Of a stretch of DNA of 64,000 nt, positions 53,245-58,154 are shown in pieces. The DNA comes from Selenomonas sp. AE3005. Its GTDB lineage: Bacteria; Bacillota; Negativicutes; Selenomonadales; Selenomonadaceae. Made by a program: the position numbers and the translations under genes. The stretch's first letter is position 1. Every line of letters begins with the position of its first letter. The DNA is taken from NCBI RefSeq assembly GCF_000686945.1, contig NZ_JMME01000001.1, forward strand, positions 310,001-374,000. The letters run 5' to 3'. The notes beneath the pieces were generated by a model. That model was given only the letters and a program-made list of their open reading frames with translations, ran no database searches and was not told the DNA's origin.

Positions 53245-54921
53245 ATGAATGGTTTAACACTAGTGGGCTTTGCCCTGGTGGCCTTTGTGGCTGCTTATTT
53301 CCTGTACGGGCGTTGGTTGGTGCGGACATGGGGAATTGACCCGACAGCTAAAACGCCTGCACAAATGTACGAGGATGGGGGAGATTTCGCTCCGGCATCA
53401 CGGTTTACAGTTTTTGCACATCAGTTTTCTTCGATAACTGGGGCCGGGCCTGTGACTGGGCCTATTATTGCGGCTATGTTCGGTTGGGCACCGGCTATGC
53501 TTTGGCTGCTGGTAGGCGGCATTTTCTTCGGTGCGGTACAGGATTTCACGGCTCTGTATGCGTCAGTTAAGAATCAGGGCAAGAGCATGGGTATGCTGAT
53601 TGAACAGTATGTCGGTGCTGCCGGCAGACGGTTATTCCTGTTGTTCTGCTGGTTGTTTACTTTACTGGTTCTGGCAGCGTTTGCTGATATCCTGGCCAAT
53701 ACGTTCAACGGCTTTACCAAGGCTGGTGCGTTAAATGTTCCCGGGGCTCAGGCAGCTACTATTTCTTTGTTATATATTGTTGTAGCTATGGGCTTTGGCT
53801 TTTTTATCCGCCGTTTTGAGCCGTCCGGGATTGTAAAACTGCTCGTGGCTATTGTATTGGTTGTGGCAATGTTTGCAGTAGGAATGGAGTTCCCGCTGTA
53901 TCTTGATGCTAACAGCTGGCGTTATGTTACTTTTGGTTATTGCTTTATTGCTTCGGTACTGCCCATGTGGCTGCTGATGGAGCCGCGTGATTATCTGAGC
54001 TCTTTCCTGCTTCTGGGTATGGTATTTGGTGGTGTAGTAGGAGTGCTGGTTGCCAATCCGGTCATCAATATGCCTGCCTTTGTTGGTTTTACGGTTAAAG
54101 GTCAGTCTTTGTTCCCAATTCTCTTTATCACGATTGCCTGCGGTGCTGTGTCCGGTTTCCATAGTCTGGTTTCTTCCGGTACTTCTTCCAAGGCTATTAA
54201 AAATGAACGTGATATGCTGCCGGTTGGCTATGGGGCAATGCTTGTTGAATCCCTGCTGGGTGTGGTCGCTCTGGTAATTGCCTGTGCAGCTGCCAGCAAT
54301 GGTACTTTGCCGCAAGGGACGCCGTTCCAGATTTTTGCTGGTGCTATCGGCGGTTTCTTCCAGATGTTCGGTCTGCCGGCTGCAGTTTCGGCCTGCATTA
54401 TAACCATGTGCGTGTCTGCACTGGCCATGACGACAATTGACTCAGTGGCCCGTATCGGCCGTATGTCCCTGCAGGAACTGGCAGCGCCGAGCGAAGGCCA
54501 GGAGGGAACCCCTGTAGAAAAATTCCTGATGAATCAGTATGTAGCAACGATTATTACCTTGGTACTGGCTTATGCATTGTGCCTGGCAGGTTATATGAAT
54601 ATCTGGCCGTTGTTCGGGGCAGCTAATCAGTTGTTGTCAGCATTGGTACTGATTTCCTTGGCATTGTTCCTCAAAACCACGGGACGTACGGGCTGGATGT
54701 TATATGTACCGATGACGTTTATGTTCCTGGTGACCATGAGTGCGCTGGTACTCAGTGTAGTTGGGATTGTCGGCAAATTGTCTGCAGGAAACTTTGTATT
54801 GATGGTGGACGGCTTACAGCTGGTGCTGGCAATTGCGTTGATGACATTGGCTGTCTTGGTTGCTAAACACTGTGGCAGCGGCTTGCTGAAGTCTGACGAG
54901 CCTGAGACTGTAACGGAATAA
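53245..54921 (+). CDS. cstA: CstA-family peptide/pyruvate transporter
   Basis: This 558-residue inner-membrane protein has about 14-16 helices. Family motifs are the N-terminal YGRWLVRTWGIDPTAKTPA, then FAHQFSSITGAGPVTGPIIAA, GAVQDFTALYASVKNQGKSMG and GFHSLVSSGTSSKAIKNERD. CstA/BtsT proteins take up peptides or pyruvate, often under starvation. The short type lacks the long C-terminal extension of E. coli CstA. It stands alone with its own promoter, marking return to normal chromosome. Confidence 0.92.
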   Translation: MNGLTLVGFALVAFVAAYFLYGRWLVRTWGIDPTAKTPAQMYEDGGDFAPASRFTVFAHQFSSITGAGPVTGPIIAAMFGWAPAMLWLLVGGIFFGAVQDFTALYASVKNQGKSMGMLIEQYVGAAGRRLFLLFCWLFTLLVLAAFADILANTFNGFTKAGALNVPGAQAATISLLYIVVAMGFGFFIRRFEPSGIVKLLVAIVLVVAMFAVGMEFPLYLDANSWRYVTFGYCFIASVLPMWLLMEPRDYLSSFLLLGMVFGGVVGVLVANPVINMPAFVGFTVKGQSLFPILFITIACGAVSGFHSLVSSGTSSKAIKNERDMLPVGYGAMLVESLLGVVALVIACAAASNGTLPQGTPFQIFAGAIGGFFQMFGLPAAVSACIITMCVSALAMTTIDSVARIGRMSLQELAAPSEGQEGTPVEKFLMNQYVATIITLVLAYALCLAGYMNIWPLFGAANQLLSALVLISLALFLKTTGRTGWMLYVPMTFMFLVTMSALVLSVVGIVGKLSAGNFVLMVDGLQLVLAIALMTLAVLVAKHCGSGLLKSDEPETVTE

Positions 54922-54953
54922 AAGAGTCCTTTCGATAAATATAAGATAAGGAA

Positions 54954-54985
54954 AAGCCCCTCGGTAGCTACTCCGAGGGGCTTGC
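54954..54985. terminator. GC-rich hairpin between cstA and the peptide locus
   Basis: AAGCCCCTCGG pairs with CCGAGGGGCTT around an 8-nt loop. The plus side serves cstA, while the better U-rich tail is on the minus side, which suits the antisense RNA. Confidence 0.88.
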
Positions 54986-55010
54986 TTATTGATAGCTTTT
55001 ATTAACCTTT
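54984..55010. repeat. 27-nt repeat, copy A (antisense RNA side)
   Basis: GCTTATTGATAG (54984-54995) is joined directly to CTTTTATTAACCTTT (54996-55010). Both blocks recur at 55109-55120 and 55124-55138 over the peptide start codon, separated there by ATA. Confidence 0.9.
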
Positions 55011-55033
55011 AGCTATTTATATTATACCATATC

Positions 55034-55062
55034 TTGCAAATTTGACAAGGATAATATAAAAT
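55034..55062 (+). promoter_or_regulatory. Candidate promoter of the hydrophobic peptide gene
   Basis: -35 TTGCAA (55034-55039) and -10 TAAAAT (55057-55062) have a 17-nt spacer. It interleaves with the minus-strand promoter of the antisense RNA. Confidence 0.5.
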
Positions 55063-55082
55063 AAAGCGTGCTGCGGATCATA

Positions 55083-55103
55083 TCCCTCACCGTAGTGAAG
55101 GGA
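55083..55103 (+). promoter_or_regulatory. 5'-UTR hairpin covering the Shine-Dalgarno site
   Basis: TCCCTCAC (55083-55090) pairs with GTG-A-AGGGA (55095-55103) around CGTA, with one bulged A. The right arm contains the start of the AAGGGAGGTG ribosome site, so folding would limit translation. Confidence 0.55.
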
Positions 55104-55108
55104 GGTGA

Positions 55109-55138
55109 GCTTATTGATAGATACTTTTATTAACCTTT
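55109..55138. repeat. 27-nt repeat, copy B (over the peptide start codon)
   Basis: GCTTATTGATAG plus ATA plus CTTTTATTAACCTTT; identical to copy A except for the inserted ATA. It contains the TTG start codon at 55114. Confidence 0.9.
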
Positions 55139-55200
55139 CTTTGTCGGTCGTAGCAGGTGTAATTAGCTACTACATCTGCAAGTGGCTGGATCGGCAGTGA
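55114..55200 (+). CDS. 28-residue hydrophobic peptide, candidate type I toxin
   Basis: TTG 55114 is preceded by a very strong Shine-Dalgarno (GGGAGGTG). The product starts MIDTFINLSLSV, continues AGVISYYICKWLDR and ends in Gln, i.e. one membrane helix with a short charged C-terminus. From memory, small peptides ending in ICKWLDR recur in Firmicutes without an assigned function; this needs a search to confirm. Its start lies inside a repeat that an adjacent divergent RNA would base-pair with, the arrangement of tisB/istR-like type I toxin-antitoxin pairs. A terminator follows at 55242. Confidence 0.65.
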   Translation: MIDTFINLSLSVVAGVISYYICKWLDRQ

Positions 55201-55241
55201 CGCAGCAACAGCACAAATGCTCTGAATAGCTACCAGAGCGC

Positions 55242-55269
55242 AAGCCCGGCCGCATGGTCGGGCTTTTTT
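55242..55269 (+). terminator. Terminator of the hydrophobic peptide gene
   Basis: AAGCCCGGCC (55242-55251) pairs with GGTCGGGCTT (55256-55265) and is followed by T6 in all. Confidence 0.9.
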
Positions 55270-55322
55270 ACTTGTAACTTCCGATAAGTATAAATTATCG
55301 GAAGTAAATAATATAGCAAAAA

Positions 55323-55366
55323 ATAAGAAGAATCCACGGCGTTATTGTCGTGGATTCTTCTTATTA
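55323..55366 (-). terminator. Terminator of hicAB-2
   Basis: A 17-bp stem (55323-55339 with 55350-55366; inner arm AGAATCCACG) lies just past the hicB stop. A second hairpin (ACTTCCGATAA with its complement, 55277-55305) lies further downstream. Confidence 0.8.
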
Positions 55367-55372
55367 TATAAT

Positions 55373-55738
55373 TTATTTTTGAACTGATGTTCTCAAACCG
55401 CCAGCCAATATACTTGTTACCAGTTGATTCAAACTTACGCCTTCGTTTTTTGCACTTAAGGCTAAAGCTCTGTGCAAACTCTTAGGAATGCGCAAATTAA
55501 ATCTGCCGCTATATTCATCATCACTTTGCGGTTCCGGAATAGCAATACCATCTTCTAAAGCTGCTAATAGCCAGTTTTCCTTTGCGTCTTCTAACATTGA
55601 AAGGATTTCTTCTTTTGTCTCGGCTTGTGTGATACAACCTTTTAAATCAGTTATATAACCTACATAGCCTCCTTCTTTAGCGGCAACAATAACTTCCTGA
55701 TAAGGAAGTGACATATAATACTGGAGATCTTTCTTCAT
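55373..55738 (-). CDS. hicB: HicB-family antitoxin (second copy, divergent)
   Basis: This 121-residue antitoxin has the HicB fold signature YYMSLPYQEVIVAAKEGGYVGYITDLKGCITQAET, then EDAKENWLLAALEDGIAIPEP. The C-terminal RHH-like part is RFNLRIPKSLHRALALSAKNEGVSLNQLVTSILAGG. It is only moderately similar to the HicB at 38790, so it is an independent module rather than a recent duplicate. ATG 55738 follows GGAGGGG and lies 2 nt after the hicA stop. Confidence 0.88.
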   Translation of the reverse strand: MKKDLQYYMSLPYQEVIVAAKEGGYVGYITDLKGCITQAETKEEILSMLEDAKENWLLAALEDGIAIPEPQSDDEYSGRFNLRIPKSLHRALALSAKNEGVSLNQLVTSILAGGLRTSVQK

Positions 55739-55740
55739 TA

Positions 55741-55986
55741 TTACCCCTCCTGTGATTCATCCCATAAATCCATTACAGTCTTTACATAAGCCTCTTTTAC
55801 ATAAGGTGCTTTACGTGGTACGGTCAACGGCATGCGGCCTTTCTTTCTATAGGTATAATGACTTGAACCGCCGCGAGGTTGGCTTGCTGTATAGCCCAGA
55901 CTGCGGAGTACTTTATCAATTTCATCAAATGTAACAGTCTTAGGGTTATTGCGTATTTTCTGCAATAATTTTTCCCATTTACTCAA
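55741..55986 (-). CDS. hicA: HicA-family toxin (second copy)
   Basis: This mRNA interferase has 81 residues from TTG 55986. I chose that start because it gives MSKWEKLLQKIRN, aligned with MSKFDKLLQRIKN of the first HicA, and has GAGGTGAG upstream; GTG 55995 is the alternative. The catalytic motif is RGGSSHYTYRKKG with His43. It is first in a two-gene operon with hicB. Confidence 0.87.
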   Translation of the reverse strand: MSKWEKLLQKIRNNPKTVTFDEIDKVLRSLGYTASQPRGGSSHYTYRKKGRMPLTVPRKAPYVKEAYVKTVMDLWDESQEG

Positions 55987-56004
55987 CGGACTCACCTCAG
56001 TTTT

Positions 56005-56084: not shown

Positions 56085-58154
56085 TTACAGCAGCACTTTA
56101 TGGCTGAGGTTTACACGGCCCTTGTCGTCGATTTCTACGACTTTGACTTCGAGCTGGTCACCAACTTTGACTACGTCCTCCACGTTTTCTACGCGGCGGT
56201 TAGCCAGCTGGGAAATATGGCACAGACCTTCTTTGCCCGGCAGCACTTCGACAAAGGCGCCGAACTTCATAAGTCTGGTTACTGTACCCGTATATACCTG
56301 GCCTACTTCGACTTCACGGACGATATCTTCAATCATCTGACGAGCTTTCTTCATACCTTCTGCATCATTGGAGAAAATGAAGATATTGCCATCTTCATGA
56401 ATATCAATCTGTACACCAGTAGCGTCGATGATACCCTTAACCACTTTACCGCCGGTACCGATGACTTCGCGAATCTTGTCCACCTTAATCGTGATGGTTT
56501 CCACTCGCGGTGCATACGGTGACAGGTCAGCAGCCGGTTTGTCAATGCATTCCAGCATTTTGCCAAGGATAAAGGCACGGCCGCGTTTAGCCTGCTGGAG
56601 TGCCGAGGACAGAATGTTGCGGTCGATACCGGCAACTTTGATATCCATCTGGATAGCCGTTACACCGTTTTCCGTACCAGCAACTTTAAAGTCCATATCA
56701 CCAAGAGCGTCTTCCATGCCCTGGATATCAGTCAGAATGGTATAAGCGTCCCCTTCCTTGACGAGGCCCATGGCTACGCCGGAAACCGGGCGCTTGATAG
56801 GCACGCCGGCCTGCATCAGGGACAAGGTGCTGCCGCAGACAGAACCCATGGAGCTGGAACCGTTGGACTCCAGAATTTCGGACACGAGGCGGATAGTATA
56901 CGGGAATTCTTCCGTGGAAGGAATAACCGGCACCAGCGCGCGCTCCGCCAAAGCACCATGACCGATTTCACGGCGTCCCGGGCTACGGATAGGTTTCGCC
57001 TCACCGACGGAATAGCCAGGGAAATTATAATGATGAATATAATGTTTAGTTGTTTCGGGGCCAAGGCCGTCAATAACCTGTTCATCACTCAGCGGGCCAA
57101 GGGTGGTTACAGTCATAACCTGCGTCTGGCCACGGGTAAAGAGTCCGGAACCATGTGCGCGTGGCAGCAGGCCGACTTCGCAGCTGACCGGGCGCACTTC
57201 TTCAAGGGCACGGCCGTCCGGGCGAATCTTTTCATGGGTAATCATGTGACGCACGATTTCTTTTTCCAAATCATGCAGCGCCATGGCAATTTCCTTATCC
57301 ATTTCAGGATAATCTACAAGGAAGTGTTCCATGGTGTCAGCATTGATATCAGCGATATGGGCATCGCGGTCCAGCTTGTCCGGGTTACGGGTAGCGGCGT
57401 CCAATCTGTCCTTGGCATATTCGCGAATAGCCTGTTCCAGTTCTTCCGGCACGGTAAAGAGTTTCGTAATGCGCTTTTCCTTACCGCAGGCCTGCTGAAT
57501 TTCTTCCTGGAAAGCTACAATGCGTTTGATTTCCTGATGGCCGTACAGAATGGCATCGAGAATGACGTCTTCCGGCAGTTCGTTAGCACCGGCCTCTACC
57601 ATCATCACGGCGTCTTTGGAACCGGCAACGGTGAGGTTCAGCGTGGAAACTTTGCGCTGTTCTTCCGTGGGGTTGATAACGAATTCATCGTTTACACGGC
57701 CGACACGAACACCGGCAATTGGGCCCATGAAGGGAATATCAGACACGCACAAAGCGGCTGACGCACCAATCATGGCTGCCAGTTCCGGAGCGTTATCCTG
57801 CTCCACCGACATAACCGTAGCTACTACCTGCACATCGTTGCGGTAGCCTTTCGGGAATAACGGACGGATAGGACGGTCAATCAGACGGGCACAAAGAATG
57901 GCGTCGCTGGACGGACGGCCTTCTCTTTTTATAAAACCACCGGGAATTTTGCCGGCAGCATACATTTTTTCTTCGTAGTCAACAGTCAGCGGGAAAAAAT
58001 CCACGCCTTCCCGGGGTTCAGCGGACGCTGTGGCTGTAACCAGAACCACCGTATCACCATAACGGACAAAGACAGCGCCATTAGCCTGTTTAGCCAGTTT
58101 GCCGTGTTCAATGGTCAGCTTACGGCCGCCCAGTTCCATTTCAAAACTCTGCAT
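56085..58154 (-). CDS. pnp: Polyribonucleotide nucleotidyltransferase (PNPase)
   Basis: PNPase is a phosphorolytic 3'-5' exoribonuclease of mRNA decay. The 689-residue protein has two RNase PH domains ([34 protein letters not shown] in the first; [25 protein letters not shown] in the second). A KH domain ([12 protein letters not shown]) follows, then a C-terminal S1 domain ([31 protein letters not shown]). It follows rpsO, as in most bacteria. Start ATG 58154 has GGGAGG upstream. Confidence 0.97.

Follow-up and report, generated by a model that had tools for sequence, protein, structure and literature searches.

A candidate type I toxin-antitoxin locus of Selenomonas with Fst/par-like logic and an upstream, divergent antitoxin gene

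A locus in the genome of Selenomonas sp. AE3005 (2.82 Mb, 25 contigs) is very probably a type I toxin-antitoxin pair that follows the logic of the Fst/par systems with a permuted gene order, the predicted antitoxin gene being located upstream of the toxin gene and read divergently. It lies in the window, a stretch of 64,000 nucleotides of contig C1. A type I locus with a divergent antisense RNA copying the start segment of the toxin had been proposed in a preliminary description; this is the best-supported reading, and the relatives of the locus keep the same parts. For the window locus itself, we infer toxicity, the antisense RNA and the contact between RNA loops from the sequence.

All elements named in the preliminary description (repeats, minus-strand promoter, terminator stem, open reading frame and ribosome site) are present at the places given there. 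The central feature is a repeat of 12 plus 15 nucleotides. In the toxin mRNA (55109–55138, plus strand) its two blocks are split by ATA over the start codon of the peptide, while the second copy, 125 nucleotides upstream, is made up of GCTTATTGATAG and CTTTTATTAACCTTT without ATA (54984–55010, minus strand); the insertion is thus confined to the toxin copy. The upstream copy would form the 5' arm of the antitoxin RNA, and its duplex with the toxin start has a computed energy of -32.6 kcal/mol. The longest exact direct repeat within positions 54800–55400 measures 15 nucleotides, a length reached by none of 500 dinucleotide shuffles and by 11 of 500 random 600-nucleotide pieces of the window, pieces overlapping the locus included.

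The toxin open reading frame (55114–55200, plus strand) starts with TTG and encodes the 28-residue, single-helix peptide MIDTFINLSLSVVAGVISYYICKWLDRQ. It is preceded by a strong ribosome binding site, GGGAGG (55100–55105, plus strand), which is overlapped by an in-frame GTG at 55105. The toxin promoter, TTGCAA-17-TAAAAT (55034–55062, plus strand), is moderate, with 9 of 12 positions, and a terminator is located at 55242–55265 on the same strand. The antitoxin promoter, TTGTCA-16-TATAAT (55021–55048, minus strand), agrees with the consensus at 11 of 12 positions and has TG ahead of the -10 element. The terminator claimed for this strand has its stem (54983–54954), although its U tail is weak (CUUUUCCUUAU), and the terminator scan also calls the stem on the plus strand. 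An antisense RNA of about 70 nucleotides had been postulated; it is retained as a prediction of about 69 nucleotides (54946–55014, minus strand, with putative ends) that is complementary to the start of the peptide gene.

Both RNAs are predicted to be folded more tightly than shuffled sequences. The toxin mRNA (55068–55272) reaches -77.4 kcal/mol against -59.6 kcal/mol for its shuffles (z = -4.2), and the predicted antisense RNA -25.8 kcal/mol (z = -3.7). In the computed fold the ribosome site is enclosed in a hairpin of the leader (55078–55108, plus strand), as had been suggested, and the segment TGCTGCG at the 5' end of the mRNA (55069–55075) pairs with CGCAGCA immediately after the stop codon (55201–55207). 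This is followed by a 3' hairpin (55219–55239, plus strand), the loop of which contains the word TAGCTAC (55227–55233); the same word is found in the loop of the antitoxin terminator (54965–54971).

From these elements a mechanism can be proposed. The toxin mRNA would be made with its ribosome site sequestered in the hairpin, the segment past the stop codon being paired with its 5' end. The antitoxin RNA, transcribed from the minus-strand promoter at 55048–55021, would make its first contact through its terminator loop, GUAGCUA, with the loop UAGCUAC of the toxin 3' hairpin; its 5' arm would then pair over the start codon, with 12 plus 15 base pairs around a three-nucleotide bulge, and occlusion of the start codon by this duplex would shut translation. 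To judge from the family, the peptide would enter the membrane and stop growth when the antitoxin runs low.

Like the window locus, par/Fst of pAD1 and the chromosomal Fst loci encode a single-helix toxin of about 30 amino acids in which a tryptophan precedes the charged tail and a [PDST]xxxG motif is present, have the ribosome site in a hairpin, and contain oppositely read direct repeats over the translation start (PMC7472228). Their RNAs make contact through the terminator loop (PMC7472228), for which the window has the matching loop words. In the passages searched, that source describes Fst/par loci as conserving convergent promoters together with a bidirectional terminator, direct repeats, and intramolecular pairing that involves both the 5' end and the ribosome site. 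Among these features, the oppositely read repeats and the ribosome-site stem-loop (computed) are present in the window; however, where par/Fst has convergent promoters and one shared bidirectional terminator, the window has an upstream divergent antitoxin and two terminators, so that the loop match needs a second copy of its own.

According to the same source, the tryptophan between the helix and the charged tail is the signature of the Fst/Ldr toxins, with [PDST]xxxG in most members (PMC7472228). The window peptide contains both, as KWLDRQ and SVVAG. In a set of 178 distinct peptides of this type, 163 have the anchor [KRQN]W[LIWF][DEN] between the hydrophobic helix and the C-terminus, 152 of these 163 with at least two charged residues in the tail, and 110 of the 178 have the helix motif. 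The window peptide does not match PF13955, PF13940 or NF033608 of Pfam and NCBIfam. When the best toxin-model matches of 41 family members were scored again with 20 (Pfam) and 10 (NCBIfam) of them, the highest scores stayed below the cut-offs of PF13955 (Fst_toxin; 14.6 versus 36 bits), PF13940 (Ldr_toxin; 23.4 versus 27 bits), NF033608 (NCBIfam Fst; 19.1 versus 26 bits) and NF047374 (CD_typeI_toxin; 23.6 versus 60 bits, with 12.8 bits for the window peptide). At E values up to 1, 23 of the 41 members match CD_typeI_toxin weakly (best 5e-5), six match Ldr_toxin and three the NCBIfam Fst model. PHROG 738, which is of unknown function, is matched by 28 of the 41. The Clostridioides difficile type I toxins behind NF047374 are likewise small membrane peptides, and their antitoxins are convergent, but they are mostly longer with a lysine-rich tail; their long overlapping antisense RNA suggests RNA decay (PMC6563280).

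A further resemblance is found in SpF66 (Rfam RF02442), the Streptococcus pneumoniae sRNA F66/srn502, which is typed in Rfam as an sRNA gene. By our reading, its consensus includes a ribosome site and a small open reading frame with a DxxxG motif and the ending CKWLDGK, similar to that of the window peptide. It is because of this ending that SpF66 was singled out among the weak Rfam matches; permissive matches to His_leader, ctRNA, miRNAs and others were judged to be due to chance. The window scores 22.3 bits against the SpF66 model, for a gathering score of 42, and the full length of the model is matched, at 38.8 bits, by a family locus in another genome (G228). F66 is listed as having Northern-blot support (PMC3395615), its neighbour F67 has an Fst-family annotation (PMC12323649), strain D39 carries three type I pairs with the same annotation (PMC6212727) and a pneumococcal DxxxG clade is listed among the Fst/Ldr toxins (PMC7472228); the literature passages searched do not state that F66 itself is coding. 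Taken with the signature of the family, the SpF66 reading frame, the DxxxG clade and the annotation of F67 indicate that the peptide type probably already belongs to Fst/Ldr. The preliminary description knew of no example of this layout with a peptide ending in ICKWLDR. As to the layout this stands, since no divergent Fst/par-like locus is described in the literature passages searched, in which the string ICKWLD was not found either; as to the peptide it does not, the type being linked to known ones through the SpF66 consensus.

The start-codon repeat was sought in relatives by local alignment of positions -25 to +45 around the start with up to 300 nucleotides on either side, a match being accepted if it spanned the start at p up to 0.01 in 200 shuffles per locus. 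In related genomes, 97 stretches gave 73 distinct loci after removal of eight duplicates and 16 stretches without a fitting start. Sixty-one of these have the repeat (35 downstream of the toxin, 25 upstream, one on both sides) and 12 do not. Among the latter, four (L042, L049, L052, L058) have a repeat that starts 5–11 nucleotides past the start, four narrowly fail at p 0.015–0.02 and at least one (L054) has a wrong start. A second set of 128 stretches from genome and viral contigs gave 115 loci (five duplicates, eight skipped), of which 106 pass: the 83 genome-contig loci comprise 70 downstream, seven upstream, one on both sides and five without, and the 32 viral-contig loci 28 downstream and four without. 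The seven upstream cases are five from Selenomonas (L092, L098, L100, L102, L104), one from Selenomonadaceae (L130) and one from a Lachnospiraceae metagenome-assembled genome (L116). Of 371 starts of other genes in these loci, examined as a control, six pass the test.

The two sets overlap in species and their counts are not independent; together they contain the 178 distinct peptides, 159 of which have the repeat (130 downstream, 27 upstream, two on both sides) and 19 do not. Judged by these relatives, the start-codon repeat is no accident. Loci that keep the peptide and have lost the repeat or the minus-strand promoter, which would speak against the proposed pairing, are not the rule; a strictly upstream repeat is not general either, with 151 of the 178 peptides not of the purely upstream kind. 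The two double-repeat cases are L147 and L014. L147 was considered as an evolutionary intermediate and rejected, its upstream match not being a credible antitoxin when the sequence is read. The repeat is interrupted in all 27 upstream loci and in 129 of 131 downstream loci (131 rather than 130, as duplicates were removed after class selection), the longest perfect run being 16 and 19 nucleotides, respectively. The largest break starts 0 to 14 nucleotides from the start codon in 24 of the 27 upstream and 82 of the 129 downstream loci. The interruption would keep the duplex short, perhaps sparing it cleavage by RNase III.

Promoters accompany the repeat in both layouts. An antisense promoter-like site (9 or more of 13) adjoins the repeat on its right in 27/27 upstream and 122/130 downstream loci, compared with 16–18% of shuffled sequences, at a median distance of 10 nucleotides between the -10 element and the repeat. 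The toxin promoter reaches a score of 9 in 25/27 upstream and 110/130 downstream loci (shuffled, 16–20%). The terminators differ between the layouts. In the downstream class, 121 of 130 loci have a hairpin between the open reading frame and the repeat, and 90 of these 121 look bidirectional, being A-rich on the left and T-rich on the right. In the upstream class, 21 of 27 loci have a hairpin to the left of the repeat, and only four of the 21 are bidirectional by this crude rule. The window antitoxin terminator is one of these four, a score that it owes to two Ts within the stem and a tail poor in T; its plus-strand tail, GCTTATTG, is poor. These counts indicate that the convergent majority has the par layout, while the upstream class as a whole has a split terminator.

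The loop match was compared among upstream loci with one locus per distinct antitoxin loop, after eight of the 27 loci, which lack a scorable antitoxin hairpin, had been dropped. This version supersedes a first test, inflated by near kin, in which 16.8% of swapped pairs shared six nucleotides. Six of the 11 distinct loops share at least five nucleotides with hairpins of their own toxin, as do 4.5% of swapped pairs, and 2 of 10000 permutations reach the observed value; in the other five of the 11 loops the match was not found. Words shared at other loci are TCACTA, TAGCTAA, CCAGCA, TAGCGG and AACCA. With the shared terminator split in two, the loop match would thus be kept in part of the scorable cases; if this retention is real, the terminator's part in stopping transcription is set apart from its part in the first RNA contact, and the loop-contact step becomes directly testable. 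Pairing of the leader with the post-stop segment also recurs, with mean energies of -15.8 kcal/mol for own and -12.0 kcal/mol for permuted partners in 27 upstream loci, and of -13.0 and -10.7 kcal/mol in 130 downstream loci. The mean for own partners is reached in none of 2000 permutations in either class, and own partners are within the best tenth in 9/27 upstream and 34/130 downstream loci.

The antitoxin of zor/orz pairs with the 5' UTR of its toxin mRNA. The preliminary description saw in the window the logic of tisB/istR or zor/orz, which holds as far as a type I system with a divergently read antisense RNA is concerned; the locus is closest to Fst/par, with pairing at the start codon, the loop match, and the tryptophan with SxxxG. 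That the locus is an independent divergent system of the zor/orz or tisB/istR kind, resembling Fst/par by convergence only, is quite unlikely. No Fst model passes its cut-off, and tisB/istR-1 has the same divergent order with a short complementary stretch, but there the RNA pairs with a standby site remote from the start codon, and expression is under SOS control (PMC4147584). In the window no such standby-site pairing in the 5' UTR is found; the repeat covers the start codon. The tryptophan and SxxxG signature, the presence of the same peptide type in the convergent, par-like layout for 130 of the 178 distinct peptides, and the co-occurrence of both layouts in seven of 15 multi-copy genomes, that of the window included, also argue against this origin, which was set aside because most relatives are convergent.

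Still less probable is a harmless small membrane protein, not a toxin, under control of a cis-antisense RNA. In its favour, deletion of chromosomal Fst/Ldr systems has no known phenotype in the passages searched (PMC7472228), and it is from sequence that we infer the toxicity of the peptide. Against it, genomes contain several copies, plasmids and phage contigs have the gene as well, silencing is layered and pairing is confined to cognate partners. Such traits are typical of toxins. Fifteen related genomes have at least two classified copies each, and in these every one of the 45 antitoxin arms finds its best partner in its own toxin, by a median gap of 18 kcal/mol; as the arms were chosen by likeness to that toxin, these energies, like those computed in the loop comparison, are partly circular and support insulation without proving it. 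With cognate-only pairing of several copies per genome, the pairs are candidates for insulated RNA switches.

When the 163 of 178 peptides with the tryptophan anchor are aligned on it, columns -13 to +2 mostly contain 2.3–4.3 bits (one column 1.8) and columns -20 to -14 mostly 0.8–2.3 bits (one at 2.9), so variability is higher in the part of the peptide whose codons also serve as the RNA target. Changes close to the window copy number 10 synonymous and eight nonsynonymous, counts that carry no signal. In our judgement the chances are about even that the start segment is an RNA barcode open to change: with the remainder of the peptide fixed, its first codons could vary, their hydrophobic pattern kept, provided that the antitoxin copy varies too, and a genome could stack many mutually deaf pairs. 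On this view, an antitoxin RNA that bears the start arm as well as the terminator loop has both recognition elements, which would allow its gene to move from behind the toxin to before it, as would have happened several times.

It is highly implausible that the window site is a decayed remnant, with repeats left by recombination and no working RNA pair: such remnants exist (e.g. L004), but the window keeps both promoters, both terminators, the ribosome site, the open reading frame and the loop match. At L004, around position 1501, the stretch between the repeats seems to be lost and the open reading frame directly follows the antitoxin terminator; the glycine of the motif is also changed, and this is a probable natural dead copy.

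The change in gene order that the Fst/par reading implies was traced on a tree built from 31 alignment columns of 130 non-viral peptides, 103 with the downstream and 27 with the upstream layout. The tree needs 15 layout changes at best, at least four of them forced by well-supported branches, a number that is soft as there are only 31 columns and 83 of 127 inner branches are open. Shuffled layouts need 24.8 changes on average and none of 500 as few as 15, so layout is clustered on the tree; the direction of change cannot be read from it. The antitoxin-toxin order could arise by tandem duplication of a convergent pair if the outer toxin and the outer antitoxin were then lost. Tandem toxin genes occur 357–691 nucleotides apart in six other loci. 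The genome of the window has three further Fst-like loci (L261, L262 and L263) with PxxxG, a convergent antitoxin and peptides ending in SYWLNH or NYWLNH; they score 28.1, 27.1 and 24.6 bits, below the Pfam cut-off of 36. One of the three sits in an array on contig C10 (L270:2147-4027), behind a gene that we take to be the flagellar hook gene flgE. By our reading of this array, copies of the last 69–141 nucleotides of the hook gene alternate with whole toxin-antitoxin pairs, with a pair lacking most of its toxin (antitoxin and toxin tail kept) and with an orphan antitoxin. The last 69 nucleotides are present in five copies, the gene's own included, and the array seems to grow by tandem duplication.

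Judged by sequence matches, many relatives of the peptide and RNA pair occur in gut and rumen bacteria. By protein search, 53 of 100 related genomes yield a peptide match at E up to 10, a threshold that also admits chance matches; at the places fetched, at least one gene for such a peptide is preceded by a ribosome site in 34 of the 100, and in 30 the start-codon segment of at least one similar peptide gene recurs nearby. A profile of 41 peptides matches 15 of 398 genomes in an even sample of the phylum (E 0.001). A scan of one genome per species (84,980 species) gives at least 590 candidate stretches with at least 497 relatives; among the 80 matches listed are Selenomonas, Phascolarctobacterium, Veillonella, Lachnospiraceae, Ruminococcaceae, Erysipelotrichaceae and others, one metagenome-assembled genome labelled Muribaculum and, as the nearest named match, Selenomonas ruminantium WCT3 (93%). 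The peptide is also matched by 37 viral contigs, by 19 plasmids (E up to 1; Ligilactobacillus, Aerococcus and Streptococcus among them) and, with the consensus as query, by 12 phage records (E up to 1), two of which, from Rhizobium phages, lie in tail fibre genes and look like chance. Peptides of this kind seem to be encoded by the phage genomes MT838020, PQ006100, PQ006166 and PQ006183 (5.8–8.6 kb). None of the 19 plasmid records, the gene table of which is incomplete, has a gene annotated under the match, and the 41 relatives all stay below the cut-offs of the Pfam and NCBIfam toxin models, so that genes of this kind may often go unnoticed.

In the window, the locus is flanked on one side by cstA (53245–54921; Pfam, 487 bits) and on the other by a hicBA pair (55995–55373, minus strand). 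A cstA match is present in all 21 other genomes of the genus; in the 18 of these with about 1.5 kb of sequence behind the gene, the remaining three being cut there by contig ends, the peptide is absent from that place. HicB exceeds its Pfam cut-off, while HicA is narrowly under it (22.8 versus 27 bits). A type II toxin-antitoxin pair (55373–55995) thus directly adjoins the candidate type I locus, and beyond it lies what is presumably a polynucleotide phosphorylase-like gene (56085–58154). Between the toxin terminator and hicB, an inverted repeat of 32 nucleotides with 81% complementarity (55307–55380) resembles a plus-strand terminator.
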